A stretch of 8,782 nt of DNA from an uncultured Terrimonas sp. (GTDB lineage: Bacteria; Bacteroidota; Bacteroidia; Chitinophagales; Chitinophagaceae). The stretch spans positions 1 through 8,782 of the forward strand of contig CAMPJQ010000080.1 of assembly GCA_946886925.1 (NCBI GenBank), given 5' to 3'. Positions within the stretch are counted from its first letter, which is position 1; each line of letters opens with the position of its first letter. The position numbers and the translations under genes were made by a program. Of the stretch, positions 1-7,271 are shown in pieces. The notes below the pieces were generated by a model. The model was not told the origin of the DNA and ran no database searches. It was given only the letters and a program-made list of their open reading frames with translations.

Positions 1-56
1 GGGGGATGGACAGTAAGCGAAGGTCAGATTTGAATACTTTTTTAAATAATAATAAT

Positions 57-950
57 ATGCAGTCAATCGGGATTGACATGGGAGGAACCAATATCAAAGG
101 AGTATTGATAAACGATAAGGGTGACATCCTCCATGAAATACAATGCAAGACCAAGGAAAAGGAAGCCGTGTACTGGAAAGGAGCGATAGCCGACATGCTG
201 CATAGTCTTCAACAAAAATCGTCCGGCAAAAATGCTCCTGTGGGTTTATCGGCCCCGGGATTGGCAGGCAGTAATAATGATTGCATAAAACTAATGCCGG
301 GCCGGCTTGAAGGTTTAGAAAATTTTGTATGGGCTGATTATCTTAAAACGCAAACATGGGTGCTCAACGATGCGCATGCCGCTTTAATGGCAGAGGCAAA
401 ATTTGGCGCAGGCAAAGGATGCGGCAATGTTATTTTATTGACACTGGGCACTGGTGTAGGCGGAGGCATTATGATAAACGGTGAATTGCACCAGGGCTTA
501 TTAAACAGGGCCGGGCATATGGGCCATGTAATGCTCAATGCAGACAGCGATGGATGTGATGTTACCAATATGCCGGCCAGCCTTGAAGACGCAATAGGCA
601 ATTGCACCATAGAACAAAGGAGTTTCGGGAAATTTTCTTCAACCTATGAACTGGTTCAGGCATATAAAGACGGCGATACCTTTGCAACATATGTATGGCT
701 CCATTCTGTAAAGCGGCTAGCTGTAGCCCTTTGCTCATTTATCAATATTCTTTCTCCTGATATTATTATTCTTGGCGGAGGGATAGCACAGTCCGGTGAT
801 GATTTATTTAAGCCGCTTGACAAGTTTATGAATATCTTTGAATGGCATCATTCGGGTGTGCGCACGCCTGTTGTGCAGGCCATATTTGATGAATATTCAG
901 GGGCAGTAGGAGCAGCCAGCTTTGCTTTACATAAAACCTTACCACACTAA
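57..950 (+). CDS. ROK-family sugar kinase-like protein (atypical)
   Basis: ROK proteins are cytoplasmic ATP-dependent sugar kinases or sugar-responsive regulators. No N-terminal helix-turn-helix is visible, so a kinase is the better reading. Numbering from the ATG at 57 (297 residues): phosphate-binding DMGGT at 7-11, SAPG at 65-68, LNDA at 103-106 with D105 as the expected catalytic base, LGTGVGGG at 130-137, and a C-terminal ILGGGI near 238-243. Two family signatures are altered. The usual ExGH sugar-binding motif reads HMGH (154-157), and the Cys-rich zinc motif that normally follows keeps only C167. The frame stays open to an ATG at 6, but the added 17 residues are polar and Asn-rich and the family starts only a few residues before DxGGT, so 57 is preferred. 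The gene ends 9 bp before the SIS gene, so the two are probably co-transcribed. The substrate is unknown, and the altered motifs leave room for a changed specificity or a non-catalytic sensor role. Confidence 0.88.
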   Translation: MQSIGIDMGGTNIKGVLINDKGDILHEIQCKTKEKEAVYWKGAIADMLHSLQQKSSGKNAPVGLSAPGLAGSNNDCIKLMPGRLEGLENFVWADYLKTQTWVLNDAHAALMAEAKFGAGKGCGNVILLTLGTGVGGGIMINGELHQGLLNRAGHMGHVMLNADSDGCDVTNMPASLEDAIGNCTIEQRSFGKFSSTYELVQAYKDGDTFATYVWLHSVKRLAVALCSFINILSPDIIILGGGIAQSGDDLFKPLDKFMNIFEWHHSGVRTPVVQAIFDEYSGAVGAASFALHKTLPH

Positions 951-959
951 ATTTTTATC

Positions 960-1739
960 ATGAATGTTATCTGGGATTATCTGCAACATTCCCGAAAAAT
1001 TATTGAAACCGTTGAAACGCAGCAAAAAGCTATACAACAAGCCGCAAAATGGTTTACAGAGAGCATTTTGCAGGGTCGGATGGTGCATGTATTCGGTTCG
1101 GGGCACAGCCGCATTATGGTGGAAGAAATGTGGCCGCGGTATGGATCATTTCCGGGGTTTAATCCTATAGTAGAGCTATCGCTCACCTTTCACAACCTGG
1201 TGGTTGGCGCCAATGGTCAGCGGCAGGCCATGTTTCTTGAAAATGTAGAAGGACTGGCCGAAAGGATTTTACGCAACTTTGATGTAAAGGAAAACGATAG
1301 TGCGCTCATCATTTCATCCAGCGGATGTAATATAGTCCCTATTGAAATGGCGGAACTGTTTCAGCAAAAAAAAGTGAAGGTAACGGCTATTCTCACCCAA
1401 AAACATGCAGATGTTTCTTCCAGCAAAAGAAAAGACGGGAAAAAATTGGGCGACTTTGCAGATCTCATTTTGGATACAGGCGCTCCGGCAGGCGATGCCA
1501 TGATCCGGATCCCGGACCTTGAAACACCCGTTGCACCTGGCTCAACAGTCGGCGGCGTTTTACTGATCAATTCCATTAAGGCAGAAACAGCCAGACTGCT
1601 AACCGAAGCGGGAAAACCTCCGAAAGTATTATCGGCTGCATGTGTAGTGGGTGCAGAAAAAGCAAAGGAACTGTTTGAGAGCGCCTATGACGAACATGCC
1701 CATCGCCTTGCTGGTTTATATAAAAATGTAGGAAATTAA
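960..1739 (+). CDS. SIS-domain sugar-phosphate isomerase-like protein (UPF0309 type)
   Basis: A 259-residue protein with one sugar isomerase (SIS) domain. This fold binds phosphosugars and occurs in aldose-ketose isomerases, in MurQ-type etherases and in regulators. Visible pieces are an N-terminal helical segment (1-40), VFGSGHSRIMVEEM at 44-57 (first phosphate-loop region), IISSSGCN at 117-124 (the Ser-rich phosphosugar-binding loop), the stretch around LDTGAPAGDA at 171-180, and PGST at 193-196. Length and motif order resemble the uncharacterised UPF0309 group rather than GmhA or GlmS. No helix-turn-helix is present, so it is not an RpiR-type repressor. It lies 9 bp after the ROK gene and 14 bp before the core-MetE gene, consistent with one mRNA. 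By context it probably acts on the product of the ROK kinase; that link is inference. The upstream sequence is T/A-rich with no Shine-Dalgarno. Confidence 0.88.
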   Translation: MNVIWDYLQHSRKIIETVETQQKAIQQAAKWFTESILQGRMVHVFGSGHSRIMVEEMWPRYGSFPGFNPIVELSLTFHNLVVGANGQRQAMFLENVEGLAERILRNFDVKENDSALIISSSGCNIVPIEMAELFQQKKVKVTAILTQKHADVSSSKRKDGKKLGDFADLILDTGAPAGDAMIRIPDLETPVAPGSTVGGVLLINSIKAETARLLTEAGKPPKVLSAACVVGAEKAKELFESAYDEHAHRLAGLYKNVGN

Positions 1740-1753
1740 AATAACACAACAAT

Positions 1754-2779
1754 ATGCATACGCCTGTACGTACAACAGTGGTTGGTAGTTATCCTTTTCC
1801 AGGATGGCTGGAATTTGCATCGCAGCACTTAAACGAATTTGGACCCGCCGATATAGAAGAAGTAATTGAAGATGCCGTTATTGCCGCTATCCATGACCAA
1901 ACAACGGCGGGGCTCGACGTAATTACCGACGGAGAACAGACAAGGCTCGATTTCAATTTATCTTTTTATGGCTATATCAAAGGAATATCGCCCGATGAAA
2001 GTGAAACAAGGCGTTTTGGACCTGCCGCACACGACCAGAGAGGAAAACACCGGATAACCGAAACACTTTCTGCTCCAAAAGGATTGGGGGTAGTAAAAGA
2101 ATTTTTACGTTTAAAAAAATTAGCACCGCAGGGGCCTGTGTTAAAAGCAAGCATACCGGGACCGTATACCTTAAGTGGAAGATTATTGCCGAACAACGAA
2201 TACAAAGACCGGTACGCAATAACCGAAGCTATCCTTCCCTTTATACAAAAGGAACTGGAAGAACTGGTAGTGGCAGGATGTACTGAAATTACGGTTGATG
2301 AGCCCTCTATGAGTTGCTATGCATATAAAGAAGACACCAAAAAATTTGCGGCTATATTCAACAAAACTGTTGAACCCGTGGTGGGCAAATGCAATCTTTC
2401 CACGCATTTATGCTTTGGCAATTTTAAAGGAAGGCCTGTGGGTTACCGGAGCATAAAACCGATGATACCGGATTTTCTTGACCTTAAAGTCAATGAAATA
2501 CATATTGAAATGGCAAACCGCGAATTTGCGGAGATAGAATTACTCGAAACTTTTGCCAAACGAATGAATGTTGCAGTGGGGATCATTGACGTAAAGAATT
2601 ATTACATTGAAACGGCGGAAGATGTAGTGGAAAGAATTAAAAGATGCCTGCAATATATTCCCGCGGAAAAGCTATCTGTAGCTCCCGACTGCGGATTAAG
2701 CCAAACTGCAAGATGGGCATCAAGACAAAAACTAATTAACATGGTGAAGGGTGCGAAAATGGTGAGGGAGATGATTTGA
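1754..2779 (+). CDS. Core-MetE: short cobalamin-independent methionine synthase-like methyltransferase
   Basis: This 341-residue protein matches only the catalytic C-terminal barrel of MetE; classic MetE is about 750 residues with a duplicated N-terminal half that is absent here. The family moves a methyl group onto homocysteine held by a zinc thiolate. All four expected zinc ligands are present: H218 and C220 (THLC), E252 (HIEMA) and C313 (PDCGL). Other barrel signatures are VVGSYP at 9-14, TDGEQTR at 58-64, VDEP at 181-184, and GIIDVKN at 276-282, which sits where MetE has its YDxHS segment. The body is intact and catalytically plausible. Single-domain core-MetE proteins are known, and their methyl donor is not always methyl-tetrahydrofolate; some take methyl groups from a corrinoid protein and the MesD type works with MesX. 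No corrinoid protein or MesX is seen here. Clustering with ROK and SIS genes is unusual, so another thiol acceptor or methyl donor is possible. Confidence 0.88.
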   Translation: MHTPVRTTVVGSYPFPGWLEFASQHLNEFGPADIEEVIEDAVIAAIHDQTTAGLDVITDGEQTRLDFNLSFYGYIKGISPDESETRRFGPAAHDQRGKHRITETLSAPKGLGVVKEFLRLKKLAPQGPVLKASIPGPYTLSGRLLPNNEYKDRYAITEAILPFIQKELEELVVAGCTEITVDEPSMSCYAYKEDTKKFAAIFNKTVEPVVGKCNLSTHLCFGNFKGRPVGYRSIKPMIPDFLDLKVNEIHIEMANREFAEIELLETFAKRMNVAVGIIDVKNYYIETAEDVVERIKRCLQYIPAEKLSVAPDCGLSQTARWASRQKLINMVKGAKMVREMI

Positions 2780-2784
2780 GGAGA

Positions 2785-2812
2785 TTGCAGGTTACAAGTT
2801 GCAGCTTGCAAG
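2785..2812. repeat. Degenerate 7-bp tandem repeat, four units
   Basis: Four consecutive heptamers fit the consensus TTRCARS (TTGCAGG, TTACAAG, TTGCAGC, TTGCAAG). They begin 6 bp after the core-MetE stop codon and fill part of the 90-bp gap before the metallohydrolase gene. Two other intergenic gaps in the window also carry 7-bp-period repeats of different sequence. No function is assigned. Confidence 0.7.
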
Positions 2813-2869
2813 GCAACAGTGTCTGCGAGGTAAGTTATAAACGCGCTTAAGCAGTTTAAAATAATTTAA

Positions 2870-3715
2870 ATGATTCCGGCTGTTATAAAGGATAATGATT
2901 TTATTGCACAGGTGCAGCGATATGAAAATGACAAAAAAAATTTTCATCTGTGGTGGCTGGGGCAAAGTGGCTACCTGCTGCTATGGCAGGGAAAAAAAAT
3001 ACTGATTGATCCCTATCTTTCGGATTCCCTCACAAAAAAATATACAGGTACCCATAAGCCGCATACGCGAATGAGCGAGCGTGTGGTTAACCCTGACTTG
3101 TTAAAAAATATTTCCATTGTAAGCTCCAGTCATAACCACACCGACCATTTAGATGGTGAGACTTTAATACCCATCATTAAAAATAATCCTGGCGTCCGCT
3201 TCATTATCCCCGAAGCCAACAGGAGCTTCGTTGCCGGCAGAACACAGGCAGCGGAAGCATTTCCTTCGGGCATGAATGAAGGAAAGCATATAACTTTTGG
3301 TGATTTTACTTTTCATGGTATTGCTGCTGCACACAATGATGTTGACCGGAATGAAAAAGGAGAATGCCTTTATATGGGGTATATTATACAGTTTGGCAAT
3401 TACACCATTTATCATAGCGGCGATACGCTTTGGTATACCGGGCTCGAAAAAATACTGCGTCCGTTTCAAATAAACCTGGCATTGCTTCCCATTAACGGAA
3501 ATGATCCCGCAAGAGGTGTTGCAGGCAATCTTAATGTGCAGGAAGCTGCAGATTTAGCTAAAGCCGCGGGCATACAACATGTTATTCCCTGCCATTATGA
3601 TATGTTTACTTTTAACACTGCAAACCCTGCTGACTTTGCTGTTAAAGCCGAAGCAGTTGGGCAAGCCTATACTATTTTACCCATTGGAGGACATTGGAGC
3701 AGCGAAGTTTTTTAG
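2870..3715 (+). CDS. UlaG-like metallo-beta-lactamase-fold hydrolase
   Basis: A 281-residue MBL-fold metallohydrolase, predicted cytoplasmic as no signal peptide is seen. The N-terminal WWLGQSGYLL (28-37) and ILIDPYLSDS (44-53) resemble the UlaG (L-ascorbate-6-phosphate lactonase) branch. The metal site is complete: HNHTDH gives H88, H90, D92 and H93; H155 lies in AAAHND; D185 lies in YHSGDT; and H242 lies in PCHYD. It is shorter than E. coli UlaG (about 350 residues), and UlaG-like proteins have many substrates, so lactonase activity is a guess. The gene follows core-MetE after a 90-bp gap with no recognisable promoter box, so read-through from the upstream operon is likely. The start at 2870 follows an A/T-rich stretch and leaves a normal N-terminus. 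The gene ends 14 bp from the stop of the convergent GNAT gene, and no terminator hairpin is seen between them. Confidence 0.87.
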   Translation: MIPAVIKDNDFIAQVQRYENDKKNFHLWWLGQSGYLLLWQGKKILIDPYLSDSLTKKYTGTHKPHTRMSERVVNPDLLKNISIVSSSHNHTDHLDGETLIPIIKNNPGVRFIIPEANRSFVAGRTQAAEAFPSGMNEGKHITFGDFTFHGIAAAHNDVDRNEKGECLYMGYIIQFGNYTIYHSGDTLWYTGLEKILRPFQINLALLPINGNDPARGVAGNLNVQEAADLAKAAGIQHVIPCHYDMFTFNTANPADFAVKAEAVGQAYTILPIGGHWSSEVF

Positions 3716-4147: not shown

Positions 4148-5269
4148 TTAAAAGATATATCTGTAGGTGATATGCTTTTTAGAAAAAGTAGCGCCTGTTG
4201 CTTCATGCAGCGCAATCATTTTGGTATTAAAATCACCAACCCACGATAATTCAAGTTCTTTATACTGCTGAAGCGGCAATACATATTCCTTTAACTTGAT
4301 GATCATGGCAGCCTCAAGTCCATGCTTCTGAAATTTTGCTTTGGTTCCCATAATAATGGCCCGCATCCGCTTATTCTTATGACTCCATTTGTTCACCAGA
4401 AATTTTAGTTTGCCCCACAACCCCAGCTTACCATTCAAATTACTGATCAGTTCATTGGTGTCGGGAACAATAACCACCAGCGATGCCGGTTCCCCGTTTA
4501 CATAAGCAAACCAGATCAGCTTCTCATCCATGATGACCTTTATTTTTTCAAATGTTTCCCGGATAGTAATGTCTGTTATAGGAGTAAAGTTTTCAAAATC
4601 TTTCCAGGCATCGTTGTATATCTCTTTAAAATCACCGGCAAACCGTGGAAACTCATTTTTTTTCAGGTGTTCAAAATGATATCCCGGTTTTTTTACCACC
4701 CATTCTGCAATCTTTGTAAAGCGTTCCGGAAAAGGTTTGTATATTTCTATTGAATTGGAAATTTGTTCATACAGCGGCTCAAAACCGTACCGCTCATATA
4801 ATCTTTTGTAATAAGGAGGATGATAGTTCATACCATAATACGGTACAGCGAAACCTTCTACGAGCAGCCCCCACCACATATCATTCTCTCCAAAATTTAC
4901 CGGGCCATCCATTGCCTTCATTCCATTTTCCGAAAGCCAGGCCTTAGCAGTATCAAACAAAAGGTCAGCAGCGTCCTGGTTATCGGTGCATTCAAAAAAA
5001 CCACATCCCCCTGTTGGTTGTTCAGAGAGGTATGCTTTTTTGTTGTTGATGAAAGCGGCTATGCGGCCAATTACCCTTCCATCTTTGTCCTTCAATATCC
5101 ATCGCATACATTTACCGTGTTGATGATAATTGTTTTTGCGGGGATCAAACACCGATTCAATATCATTGTTTAAAGGGCATACCCAGTTGGGATCATTTTT
5201 ATATATTTTTTTAGGGAGATCAAGAAAGGATTTTCTTGTGGCTGCACTGTTAACTTCTATAATTTCCAT
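4148..5269 (-). CDS. YghO-like protein with tandem acetyltransferase-like (GNAT) halves
   Basis: A 373-residue soluble protein of the group related to E. coli YghO, annotated as GNAT-like with no established reaction. Typical landmarks are NDPNWVCPL at 25-33, the GRIAAF strand at 68-73, GGCGFFEC at 87-94, GPVNFGENDMWWGLLVEGF at 122-140, and YHPPYYKRLYERYGFEP at 149-165. A second half carries MGTKAKFQKHGLEAAM at 307-322 and ELSWVGDFNTKMIALHEATGA at 340-360, the latter resembling the end of a GNAT fold. The classic Q/RxxGxG/A coenzyme A loop is not obvious, so acetyl-CoA use is unproven. The start at 5269 is the first ATG and gives the normal N-terminus. The small GNAT gene follows 10 bp downstream. 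The gene is divergent from argS, and the MITE-like element lies between them. Confidence 0.85.
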   Translation of the reverse strand: MEIIEVNSAATRKSFLDLPKKIYKNDPNWVCPLNNDIESVFDPRKNNYHQHGKCMRWILKDKDGRVIGRIAAFINNKKAYLSEQPTGGCGFFECTDNQDAADLLFDTAKAWLSENGMKAMDGPVNFGENDMWWGLLVEGFAVPYYGMNYHPPYYKRLYERYGFEPLYEQISNSIEIYKPFPERFTKIAEWVVKKPGYHFEHLKKNEFPRFAGDFKEIYNDAWKDFENFTPITDITIRETFEKIKVIMDEKLIWFAYVNGEPASLVVIVPDTNELISNLNGKLGLWGKLKFLVNKWSHKNKRMRAIIMGTKAKFQKHGLEAAMIIKLKEYVLPLQQYKELELSWVGDFNTKMIALHEATGATFSKKHITYRYIF

Positions 5270-5327
5270 ATGTATTGCGCTTAGCTACTGCATTTCTACA
5301 AAATAACATAAAAAAAGGATTGAAGCC

Positions 5328-5335
5328 ACATATCC
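5328..5335. repeat. Left 8-bp direct repeat (probable target-site duplication)
   Basis: ACATATCC lies immediately outside the left terminal inverted repeat, and an identical copy lies immediately outside the right one at 5450-5457. With two more matching bases (CC) the shared string is 10 bp, but those bases overlap the right inverted repeat, so 8 bp is the consistent boundary. Such paired copies are the usual mark of a transposition event. Confidence 0.75.
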
Positions 5336-5449
5336 GGGTGTATTCCAAATTGTCGCCGGTTGGTGGAGACACCTACCGGGGCGTCTGCCGTGGGCGGTGT
5401 CTTCACCGCCCACATGAAGCAAAGCAATGCGACAATTTGGAATGCACCC
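5336..5449. mobile_element. 114-bp MITE-like element with 21-bp terminal inverted repeats
   Basis: The left end (5336-5356, starting GGGTGTATTCC) and right end (5429-5449, ending GGAATGCACCC) are inverted repeats matching at 20 of 21 positions. An identical 8-bp direct repeat flanks both sides. The inside (5357-5428) holds three back-to-back hairpins and no open reading frame, so it encodes no transposase and would have to be mobilised in trans. An 8-bp duplication is typical of several insertion-sequence families (for example IS1595, IS256 and IS66), but no family can be assigned from the ends alone. It sits between the divergent YghO-like gene and argS, and its right end overlaps the predicted argS promoter. 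The alternative reading is a fixed structured regulatory or RNA element, with the flanking repeat a coincidence. Confidence 0.75.
5356..5413. other. Three consecutive hairpins inside the 114-bp element
   Basis: Hairpin one (5356-5379) has 10-nt arms CCGGTTGGTG and CACCTACCGG with one T-T mismatch and a GAGA loop. Hairpin two (5380-5389) has arms GGC and GCC around GTCT. Hairpin three (5390-5413) has perfect 10-nt arms GTGGGCGGTG and CACCGCCCAC around TCTT. They abut with no spacer and are enclosed by the 21-bp terminal repeats, so a single strand could fold into a cloverleaf-like shape. No T-run follows, so this does not look like an intrinsic terminator. Confidence 0.7.
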
Positions 5450-5466
5450 ACATATCCTTATTTTTG
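5436..5466 (+). promoter_or_regulatory. Bacteroidota-type promoter of argS
   Basis: TTTG at 5436-5439, a 19-nt spacer, then TATTTTTG at 5459-5466 match the known Bacteroidota housekeeping consensus (TTTG, 19-21 nt, TAnnTTTG) at every fixed position. Transcription would begin a few bases after 5466, leaving a short leader of under about 20 nt before the argS ATG. The -33 box lies inside the right inverted repeat of the MITE-like element, while the -7 box lies outside it. Confidence 0.7.
5450..5457. repeat. Right 8-bp direct repeat (probable target-site duplication)
   Basis: ACATATCC is identical to the copy at 5328-5335 on the other side of the 114-bp element. It falls in the spacer between the -33 and -7 boxes of the argS promoter. 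Confidence 0.75.
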
Positions 5467-5489: not shown

Positions 5490-7271
5490 ATGTCCGTTAC
5501 ATCAGGTATTCAGCAGGCTGTTATTAAAGCACTGGCGCAACTGTACAGCCAGCCATTCAGTGCAAAGGATTTCCAGATCAATCAAACCAAACCAGAGTTT
5601 GAAGGCGATTATACCGTTGTTTTATTCAGCCTGTTAAAACCGCTAAAACAATCTCCTGATGCTTTGGGAAAAGCTATGGGCGTACATTTAATAGAAACAC
5701 ACCCTTCTTTATTTTCTTCCTTCAATGTTATCAAGGGCTTTTTGAACCTCACCATCACCGACGCTTACTGGGTTGCCGTATTGAACGATGAATACATGAA
5801 TACTGCATATGGCAAAAAAGAAAAGAAAGGAAAAACAATCGTGGTGGAATATTCTTCACCCAATACCAACAAACCCCTGCACCTGGGGCACCTGCGCAAT
5901 AATTTTTTGGGATGGAGCGTAGCTGAAATTTTAAAAGCAGATGGATATGATGTGGTAAAAACATGCATTGCAAACGACAGGGGCATACATATATGCAAAA
6001 GCATGGTTGCCTGGCAAAATTTTGCTAACGGAGCCACCCCCGAAAGTACCGGCATGAAGGGTGATCATTTTGTTGGAGATTATTACGTACAGTTTGGAAC
6101 GGAATTTAAAAAAGAAGTACAGGCCTTAAAAGCCACGGGAATGAGTGAAGAAGCCGCAGAAAAAGAAGCACCCATTATGAAAGCAGCCCAGCAAATGCTG
6201 GTAGACTGGGAAGCAGGAAAACCTGATGTAATAGCGTTATGGAAAAAGATGAATAGCTGGGTATATGCAGGCTTTGATGTTACTTATAAAAGGATTGGCA
6301 GCGATTTCGATAAAATGTATTATGAAAGTGACACCTATTTACTGGGGAAAAAATTAGTGGAAGAAGGGCTGCAAAAAGGGGTATTCTTTACAAAAGATGA
6401 TAACAGTGTATGGGTTGATTTAACTGCGGAGGGCCTCGACGAAAAAATAGTACAACGAAAAGACGGAACAGCAGTTTACATTACGCAGGACATAGGATTA
6501 GCGGTTAATAAATACGAAGCTTACCAATATGACCAGAGCATTTATGTTGTGGGCGACGAACAGAATTATCACTTTAAAGTGCTAAAACTGATATGTGAAA
6601 AACTGGGGCTGCCCTCTTCCGAAGGTATTTACCACCTCAGCTACGGAATGGTGGAGCTGCCTTCGGGTCGTATGAAAACAAGAGAAGGAACAGTGGTTGA
6701 TGCCGATGACATTATTGATGAGATGATAAAAGTGGCAGCACAGAAAACCGAGGAGTTGGGCAAGGTAAAAGATTTTACTGTTGAGGAGCTCGGCAAACTC
6801 TATAATACGATTGGACTCGGCGCATTGAAGTTTTTTATCCTGCGGGTTGATCCGAGGAAAAGGATGATCTTCAACCCCGAAGAAAGTATAGATTTTCATG
6901 GTTTCACCGCCTCCTTTGTTCAATTCTCACATGCAAGAGCAAAAGCCATTCTTAGGAATGAACGGCCGGATAACGACTTTGCACTGCAACACAGCGAAGC
7001 CCTGCTGCCTTTGGAAAAAGAACTGATCATTTTGTTAGAAAAATATCCCGCTGCCATACAGCAGGCCGCTTTCGAACACAACCCCTCCGTAATAGTTAAC
7101 TATTGCTACGAGCTTGCAAAAACATTCAATTCCTTTGTAACAGAACACCGGGTGCTGAAAGCCGAAACGGGAAATAAAAAACAGTTGCGCCTGCGCATCT
7201 GCCAGCTGACGGCCAATGTTATTGCCTCGGGTATGGGGTTGGCGGGAATTGAGGTACCGGAGAGAATGTAG
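5490..7271 (+). CDS. argS: Arginyl-tRNA synthetase (class I)
   Basis: The cytoplasmic enzyme charges tRNA-Arg with arginine using ATP and is essential. The 593-residue protein has the full family layout: an N-terminal tRNA-contacting domain (about 1-90); the catalytic Rossmann fold with SSPNTNKPLHLGHLRNN (122-138), where HLGH is the HIGH motif; AYITQDIG-type residues at 328-336 and VVGDEQNYH (353-361); SGRMKTREG (392-400) as the KMSKS-equivalent loop; and a C-terminal all-helical anticodon-binding domain from about 470 ending in GIEVPERM, a typical ArgRS C-terminus. It looks intact. The ATG at 5490 fits the family N-terminus and sits just after a strong promoter match; a nearby ATG at 5480 is in another frame. 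It is transcribed alone, divergent from the YghO-like gene, with a long non-coding stretch after it. Confidence 0.97.
   Translation: MSVTSGIQQAVIKALAQLYSQPFSAKDFQINQTKPEFEGDYTVVLFSLLKPLKQSPDALGKAMGVHLIETHPSLFSSFNVIKGFLNLTITDAYWVAVLNDEYMNTAYGKKEKKGKTIVVEYSSPNTNKPLHLGHLRNNFLGWSVAEILKADGYDVVKTCIANDRGIHICKSMVAWQNFANGATPESTGMKGDHFVGDYYVQFGTEFKKEVQALKATGMSEEAAEKEAPIMKAAQQMLVDWEAGKPDVIALWKKMNSWVYAGFDVTYKRIGSDFDKMYYESDTYLLGKKLVEEGLQKGVFFTKDDNSVWVDLTAEGLDEKIVQRKDGTAVYITQDIGLAVNKYEAYQYDQSIYVVGDEQNYHFKVLKLICEKLGLPSSEGIYHLSYGMVELPSGRMKTREGTVVDADDIIDEMIKVAAQKTEELGKVKDFTVEELGKLYNTIGLGALKFFILRVDPRKRMIFNPEESIDFHGFTASFVQFSHARAKAILRNERPDNDFALQHSEALLPLEKELIILLEKYPAAIQQAAFEHNPSVIVNYCYELAKTFNSFVTEHRVLKAETGNKKQLRLRICQLTANVIASGMGLAGIEVPERM

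Follow-up and report, generated by a model that had tools for sequence, protein, structure and literature searches.

A 114-bp element beside argS in an uncultured Terrimonas belongs to a MITE family that prefers sites upstream of Bacteroidota promoter boxes

The stretch of DNA that we analysed (the window; 8,782 nucleotides from an uncultured Terrimonas sp.) holds a 114-bp segment with matching inverted ends, lying at 5336-5449 in the spacer between argS and a divergent gene. We asked whether this segment is mobile DNA or part of the argS control region. An earlier note had read it as a MITE-like insertion, and our script recheck agrees exactly with the coordinates given there. The left terminal inverted repeat, GGGTGTATTCCAAATTGTCGC (5336-5356, plus strand), has like ends at many copies, and differs at one of 21 positions (20/21 identical) from the right one, which reads GGGTGCATTCCAAATTGTCGC on the minus strand (5429-5449). 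Identical 8-bp copies of ACATATCC flank the two ends (5328-5335 and 5450-5457), also as claimed before. These ends form the sole 21-bp inverted repeat of the window (at most one mismatch, 40-300 bp spacing); when the window was resampled 200 times with a first-order Markov model, no such repeat arose, and a repeat finder ranks the element first among 40 inverted pairs (27 nt, 89%). Open frames of 51-120 aa run across the element and its flanks, and no listed frame of at least 50 aa is confined to its 114 bp, in line with the earlier statement that nothing is encoded between the ends. As in other MITEs, the element is short and lacks a transposase gene (related pairs are mostly 103-150 bp long), and it combines terminal inverted repeats with a target duplication, exact at 8 or 9 bp in 51 of 107 pairs of the family.

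The downstream gene, argS, encodes arginyl-tRNA synthetase (5490-7271, plus strand; PF00750, PF05746, PF03485), and the divergent gene encodes a 373-aa protein that matches no Pfam family at 1e-5 (4148-5269, minus strand). Farther upstream, positions 6-3715 hold genes for ROK-family, SIS-domain, cobalamin-independent methionine-synthase-like and metallo-beta-lactamase-superfamily proteins, among which we saw nothing unusual. A place in the argS promoter spacer would suit a fixed regulatory palindrome of argS (an attenuator, terminator or RNA element) that resembles a MITE, and so would the strong fold, which other copies keep by compensatory changes. A search with ArgS matched 12 of 13 genomes, and the region upstream of argS was read in 10 of these. 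Closest by ArgS were Agriterribacter humi (G008; 93% identical), a member of the Chitinophagaceae, and an uncultured Sphingobacteriales bin (G002; 89%). The window's DNA accordingly stems from Agriterribacter or a near neighbour of it. At the insertion place A. humi carries GATTGAAGCCACATATCCTTATTTTTGCAG, uninterrupted and with one copy of ACATATCC; the joined window flanks align with it at 552 of 600 positions, gap-free at the junction, and alignment runs across the junction in 7 of the 10 relatives. At the argS site none of the 10 has the element; one of them, L356, has other extra sequence upstream of argS. The empty site in A. humi refutes a fixed argS structure, and related copies at many unrelated sites with their own duplications speak against it too, as does the absence of any Rfam family at gathering score anywhere in the window; we consider that explanation highly improbable. 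A single copy conserved upstream of argS with no empty site, the outcome that the earlier note had set against its own reading, was looked for in the relatives and not found, and the kind of empty site that it proposed to seek in sister strains exists in exact form in the closest relative, A. humi. The 114-bp element is younger than the split between A. humi and the window's lineage, a fairly recent insertion, as had been supposed.

If the element is mobile, copies should occur elsewhere with duplications of their own. In a public genome set 77 stretches contain the end pattern GGGTGNATTCCAAATTGTC, 75 of them Bacteroidota by title and one Streptomyces. Searching 19 genomes picked for having the end, the 114-bp query matched 18, seven with 11-35 matches and 11 with 1-5 (partial matches included); some other members of the Chitinophagaceae are rich in copies, with as many as 35 matches in one genome. 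Ends with at most three mismatches numbered 200 in five genomes, against 0 for a backward-read control pattern; two Chitinophagaceae bins, ACE_BAC11 and ACE_BAC13 (G003 and G004; L112-L118), hold 50 and 75 end matches in several variants. The family is patchy in the Chitinophagaceae, since only 18 of 288 sampled genomes hold the exact wider-family end GGGTGYATTYMAAATTKTCGC. Five full-length matches, 87-90% identical to the window's element, head the list for G002, and three of the five MITE pairs fetched from that genome bear a TTTAAA end variant. Among 107 distinct end pairs, the window's included, flanking duplications are exact at 8 bp in 34 and at 9 bp in 17, and neither in 56; flanks of 8 bp agree within one mismatch in 50 of the 107, against 0.14% for flanks of different elements. 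A held-out set of 57 pairs gave 14 exact 8-bp and 6 exact 9-bp duplications, with neither in 37. Chance or degraded end pairs were retained in every count. The expectation that each copy would have its own 8-bp duplication holds, with 9 bp allowed as well, for roughly one pair in two, and fails for 56 of the 107. Among plasmids the MITE query found three matches, all at chance level (E 1), and among phages none; four end-bearing stretches of viral contigs, three of them near-identical around the end, had no convincing partner end. Three Bacteroidales bins (L026, L035, L052) have this end near the edge of a contig, in each case with one common sequence after it, which suggests an unassembled longer repeat with these ends.

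The element had been called undescribed-looking, and a search of the literature on the end sequence and on MITEs of Chitinophagaceae, Bacteroidetes and ISKra4, in titles and the starts of abstracts of mostly open papers, returned no description of its family. It belongs to an apparently new MITE family, one of soil and sludge bacteria. The Cardinium endosymbiont is a member of the Bacteroidota. A MITE is described from it (PMC9769881), and BrickBuilt and other MITEs of Porphyromonas gingivalis are likewise Bacteroidota MITEs, these with IS-like ends (PMC4596501). The ends given for the latter in that source, CCGAAAGGTCTC and AAGACCTTTGCA, differ from those of the window's family, and its text contains neither CCAAATT nor GGGTG. 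A 443-bp element with the family's ends in a Prevotellaceae bin (L075:4618-5060) holds a tandem repeat of about 21 bases; BrickBuilt, too, holds a tandem repeat (PMC4596501).

Which enzyme could move such an element? Frames neighbouring the ends clustered into no common gene. Forty-two of 44 selected frames (all but the two longest, of 1127 and 1454 aa) were scanned with Pfam; of the 86 families matched, the 25 listed include a phage integrase but no DDE transposase, and seven stretches of G003 and G004 with wider-spaced or odd single ends showed no transposase in their frames by eye. ISL3 was tried first as the transposase family and rejected; six of its loci, L119-L124, had no end matching better than 14/21, and a weak cross-match (22.9 bits) led to L125. 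This locus, from a Ferruginibacter bin, is an insertion sequence whose protein matches Pfam UPF0236 and, among NCBIfam models, best ISKra4 and then ISLre2. In all, eight pairs of family ends lie 1252-1285 bp apart and enclose a UPF0236/ISKra4-like protein, as expected of autonomous elements sharing the ends of a MITE. Five of the eight have 8-bp duplications (GCTCTTCC, TCTTTTTT, TTTTTAAA, CAAGAGAG and AGGCAGCA) and three have none; one of these three, L127, has a right end that matches at only 16/21. The copy flanked by AGGCAGCA is that of G002 (L156), with a TTTAAA end that differs from the window's at 2 of 21 positions and a transposase broken by stops. The full-length insertion sequence proposed as a check was accordingly found, at 1.25-1.29 kb and with ends of the same family; an intact one with exactly the window's TTCCAA variant (GGGTGYATTCCAAATTGTCGC ends) was not, L156 being the nearest. 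Near transposase sequence, that variant was seen solely beside a remnant in G014, where 27 bp separate an exact GGGTGCATTCCAAATTGTCGC end from a match to the last 32 aa or so of the transposase (a 32-aa C-terminal match, E 3e-5). Two further end pairs, 390 and 366 bp apart (L136:1438-1827 and L137:1442-1807), hold C-terminal transposase fragments, with no duplication seen; they resemble products of internal deletion, intermediate between an insertion sequence and a MITE. The Ferruginibacter insertion sequence (L125:1257-2541; also L126, L144, L286) contains two copies of a 14-base palindrome, CCGATAGCTATCGG, and of the five loci with it four are one and the same place. A stretch like it interrupts the L125 transposase next to the conserved GAIES motif and is possibly a separate small repeat.

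The transposase itself is split over two frames, with the junction at a run of A residues (seen in 10 of 11 loci). The second frame is +1 in 7 of 10 loci, -1 in two (L125 and L156) and in frame in L157, and both -1 loci have broken genes. Asp157, Asp230 and Glu339 of P0019, a relative of the L125 transposase, are invariant in 11 of 11 aligned proteins; by motif we take them to be the DDE catalytic triad. Against the NCBIfam ISKra4 model, P0019, P0033 and P0105 score 201.4, 202.8 and 197.5 bits (cut-off 205), and against the ISLre2 model the same three full-length proteins score 110-121 (cut-off 200). Matches to P0019 occur in 17 of 294 Chitinophagaceae genomes, fragments included. The same query gave no match in 23 of the 32 genomes searched via end-bearing loci, among them the copy-rich G001, G003, G004 and G011, where movement would need a transposase that is lost, unassembled or more distant. 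Plasmid records with transposase relatives number 41, all less than 60% identical. Those listed that cover more than 90% of the query are cyanobacterial, 27-28% identical and labelled ISKra4 family transposase, hypothetical protein or nothing, and shorter matches are labelled ISKra4 or ISLre2, among others. The PDB gave no sequence relative, its sole match being an unrelated kinetochore chain (E 0.08).

Among described systems the partner insertion sequences come closest to the ISKra4 family and its ISMich2 group, with which they share, as described in PMC3942029, a UPF0236/Mutator-type DDE transposase, the lack of passenger genes and a two-frame transposase. In the ISMich2 group (ISKra4 family, p-MULT 4), compared here by its description, the frames are joined by a -1 frameshift (PMC3942029), whereas the second frame of the partner sequences is mostly +1 (7/10 loci). 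The three full-length partner proteins, at 197.5-202.8 bits, fall just under the ISKra4 cut-off of 205.

Together the data make it very likely that the element is a MITE moved in trans by an ISKra4/ISLre2-type transposase and inserted after the split from A. humi; the copies, duplications, empty site and insertion sequences with same-family ends uphold the earlier reading. Mobilisation in trans by an ISKra4-type enzyme is very probable. The 114-bp element, non-autonomous for want of a transposase gene, would depend on a DDE enzyme from the ISKra4/ISLre2 (Mutator-superfamily) assemblage, supplied by the 1.25-1.29-kb insertion sequences that carry the same kind of 21-bp ends. This enzyme would join both ends to the target and leave duplications of 8 or 9 bp, and it would have placed the element between argS and its divergent neighbour once the window's lineage had separated from A. 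humi. A palindrome of the REP/BIME kind, spread by a RAYT (Y1 HuH) transposase, would equally be short, hairpin-rich, present in many copies and intergenic: only 3 of 93 tested first-set elements lie inside frames of at least 120 aa, compared with 648 of 1030 positions drawn at random from these loci. REP elements are not known to have target duplications. The 8- and 9-bp duplications common in the family, and the 21-bp ends that it shares with insertion sequences encoding DDE transposases, leave that origin next to no credence.

Two inner hairpins lie on the plus strand between the ends, CGGTTGGTG-GAGA-CACCTACCG (5357-5378), with one T-T mismatch in the window copy, and GTGGGCGGTG-TCTT-CACCGCCCAC (5390-5413). 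The 130-nt stretch of element and duplications gives z -9.6 when folded as plus-strand DNA and -9.0 when folded as minus-strand RNA, and 0 of 200 shuffles did as well. Furthermore, 31 window-type copies align with the two hairpins beside an end-to-end stem, a three-way-junction fold. Over 39 fold pairs and 30 distinct sequences, 93.4% of cells pair. Ten pairs have double changes (reached by 7 of 500 shuffles), as do 55 cells, and the covariation score stands at 0.152 (no shuffle of the 500 reaches either of the last two; at most 0.055 when slid). Kinship of the copies inflates scores of this sort, and the transposase constrains the end stem. The number of further pair types, 25, was reached in 59 of 500 shuffles and is the only one of five measures that does not support the fold. 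Stem pairs of both hairpins covary, and two pairs of hairpin 1 switch on both sides, in 11 copies each. The copies keep the three-way-junction fold by compensatory changes; it may act as DNA or as RNA, and we infer that the hairpins matter for transposition or persistence. Intergenic hairpins of some Chitinophagaceae call for caution: they are mobile DNA, not riboregulators.

Where do the copies insert? The Bacteroidota -7 promoter box, TANNTTTG, occurs in the outward flanks of 214 first-set ends 25 times at offsets 24-41 and 15 times at 42-190. The 24-41 interval was picked on this set and then fixed before a held-out test of 58 elements, of which one, near a contig end, was dropped. At 24-41 the remaining 57 elements (114 ends) had 16 boxes in 2052 positions; at 42-190 they had 10 in 16915 (binomial p 6e-10). 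The prediction named G014 and G117, and eight elements of other genomes, fetched earlier but unanalysed, also entered. Recounts limited to the named genomes (98 ends; 15 boxes/1764 against 9/14532, p 1.6e-9) or to loci fetched after the prediction (86 ends; 13/1548 against 8/12744, p 2.5e-8) gave the same picture. Two of the 214 first-set ends duplicate others, their removal changes nothing, and no end is common to both sets. Over both sets 8 boxes lie at offsets 1-23 (7544 positions), 41 at 24-41 (5904 positions) and 25 at 42-190, so that a box is about 13 times commoner per position at 24-41 than beyond. Peaks stand at 38-41 (18 boxes) and 27-31 (15), about one helical turn apart. The MITE family prefers sites 24-41 bp upstream of Bacteroidota -7 boxes, and this preference is the most interesting result of the analysis. 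A strict box at 24-41 accompanies only 25 of 107 first-set and 16 of 57 held-out elements, so most insertions have no recognisable box. A strict box also stands at 28-40 in four of the eight IS-size copies, which points to the transposase itself as the source of the preference.

Could survival alone account for this pattern? Loss of insertions from promoters and genes, the remainder being random, would leave near-promoter positions without any targeting. The rarity of insertions in long frames (3/93) fits such loss, as do the fewer boxes per position at 1-23 than at 24-41, the 82 of 107 and 41 of 57 insertions without a strict box at 24-41, and a weak first-set enrichment of inward-pointing boxes in the same interval (5, p 0.03). 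Survival alone, however, predicts no sharp fall past 41 bp, where the count drops from 41 boxes in 18 offsets (24-41) to 3 in 19 (42-60). Inward-pointing boxes at 24-41 numbered 0 in the held-out set and 5 overall (p 0.16), and none of three scrambled motifs was significant there (highest GTTTNNAT, 8 boxes, p 0.07). We judge survival without targeting unlikely, and infer that the preference stems from contact with RNA polymerase or promoter DNA.

Targeting of this kind has precedents. TnGBS and related insertion sequences insert 15-17 bases upstream of the -35 (Guerillot et al.; PMC3942029); that study, on Mutator-type transposases that target sites upstream of promoters, relied on a predictor of sigma-A promoters (PMC3942029). 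Thirteen ISKra4-group insertion sequences with near-perfect ends gave a similar but lower promoter signal on both sides, and within p-MULT 4 that paper ties promoter-upstream insertion to the ISKra4 group only (PMC3942029). The present family resembles TnGBS, ISLre2 and ISKra4-group elements in its position-specific promoter excess outside the ends, and the 13 ISKra4-group elements in having near-perfect ends and promoters on either side (PMC3942029). By arithmetic, and with a spacer of 19-20 bp, the main peak at 38-41 puts the junction about 13-17 bp before the -33, a distance comparable with the 15-17 bases of TnGBS. Unlike TnGBS and ISLre2, the case here consists of MITEs and a two-frame IS lineage, with a Bacteroidota -7 motif and a second peak at 27-31 bp. 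Going by its name, ISHhy1, one of the 13 ISKra4-group elements, is presumably from Haliscomenobacter hydrossis; it would already be a Bacteroidota element, so promoter targeting in Bacteroidota is not new as such. MITE targeting beside the divergent Bacteroidota type of promoter offers a testable case in which a transposase would track the transcription apparatus of the phylum it lives in; insertions of this sort could help to locate promoters in bacteria that have been little studied.

The transposase family, the upstream-of-promoter preference and the conserved inner hairpins go beyond the earlier note, and so does the argS promoter at the insertion point. The argS -7 box, TATTTTTG (5459-5466, plus strand), fits the motif TANNTTTG, and eight of the 10 relatives read (L353-L360) have its context TCCTTATTTTTGCAG in front of argS. 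The element ends 9 bp before this box (strict box at offset 10), and the native upstream half of the promoter is therefore displaced by 122 bp. The window's own insertion is atypical, lying inside the argS promoter and off the 24-41 rule on the argS side. ArgS is normally essential, and argS expression must for that reason survive the insertion. A TTTG in the right end (5436-5439, plus strand), a candidate -33 element as read from the letters, lies exactly 19 bp before the argS box, and it is plausible that this TTTG and the native box form a hybrid promoter that drives argS. Among 64 promoter-like boxes in the fetched loci, TTG stands at 19-20 bp eight times, a weak peak, and at 14 bp seven times, the latter probably argS orthologues. 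Hybrid geometry is not enriched in the family: of 328 ends, two have a strict box at offset 10, and one of the two is the window's. That these MITEs form a promoter-seeking class, whose transposase would read the Bacteroidota initiation complex or promoter DNA with two preferred positions upstream of the -33, and whose TTTG would make a working hybrid promoter for argS, is a tentative proposal that we hold to be rather doubtful as a whole.

On the other side of the element, TATTTTGT (5298-5305, minus strand) stands 31 bp beyond the left end and falls within the second peak of the family (27-31). It matches just 4 of the 6 fixed bases of TANNTTTG; by eye, ACAAAATAAC is kept in 6 of the 10 relatives and TCAAAATAAC in one. 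TATTTTGT is a possible -7 box, and with it a candidate promoter element, of the divergent gene.
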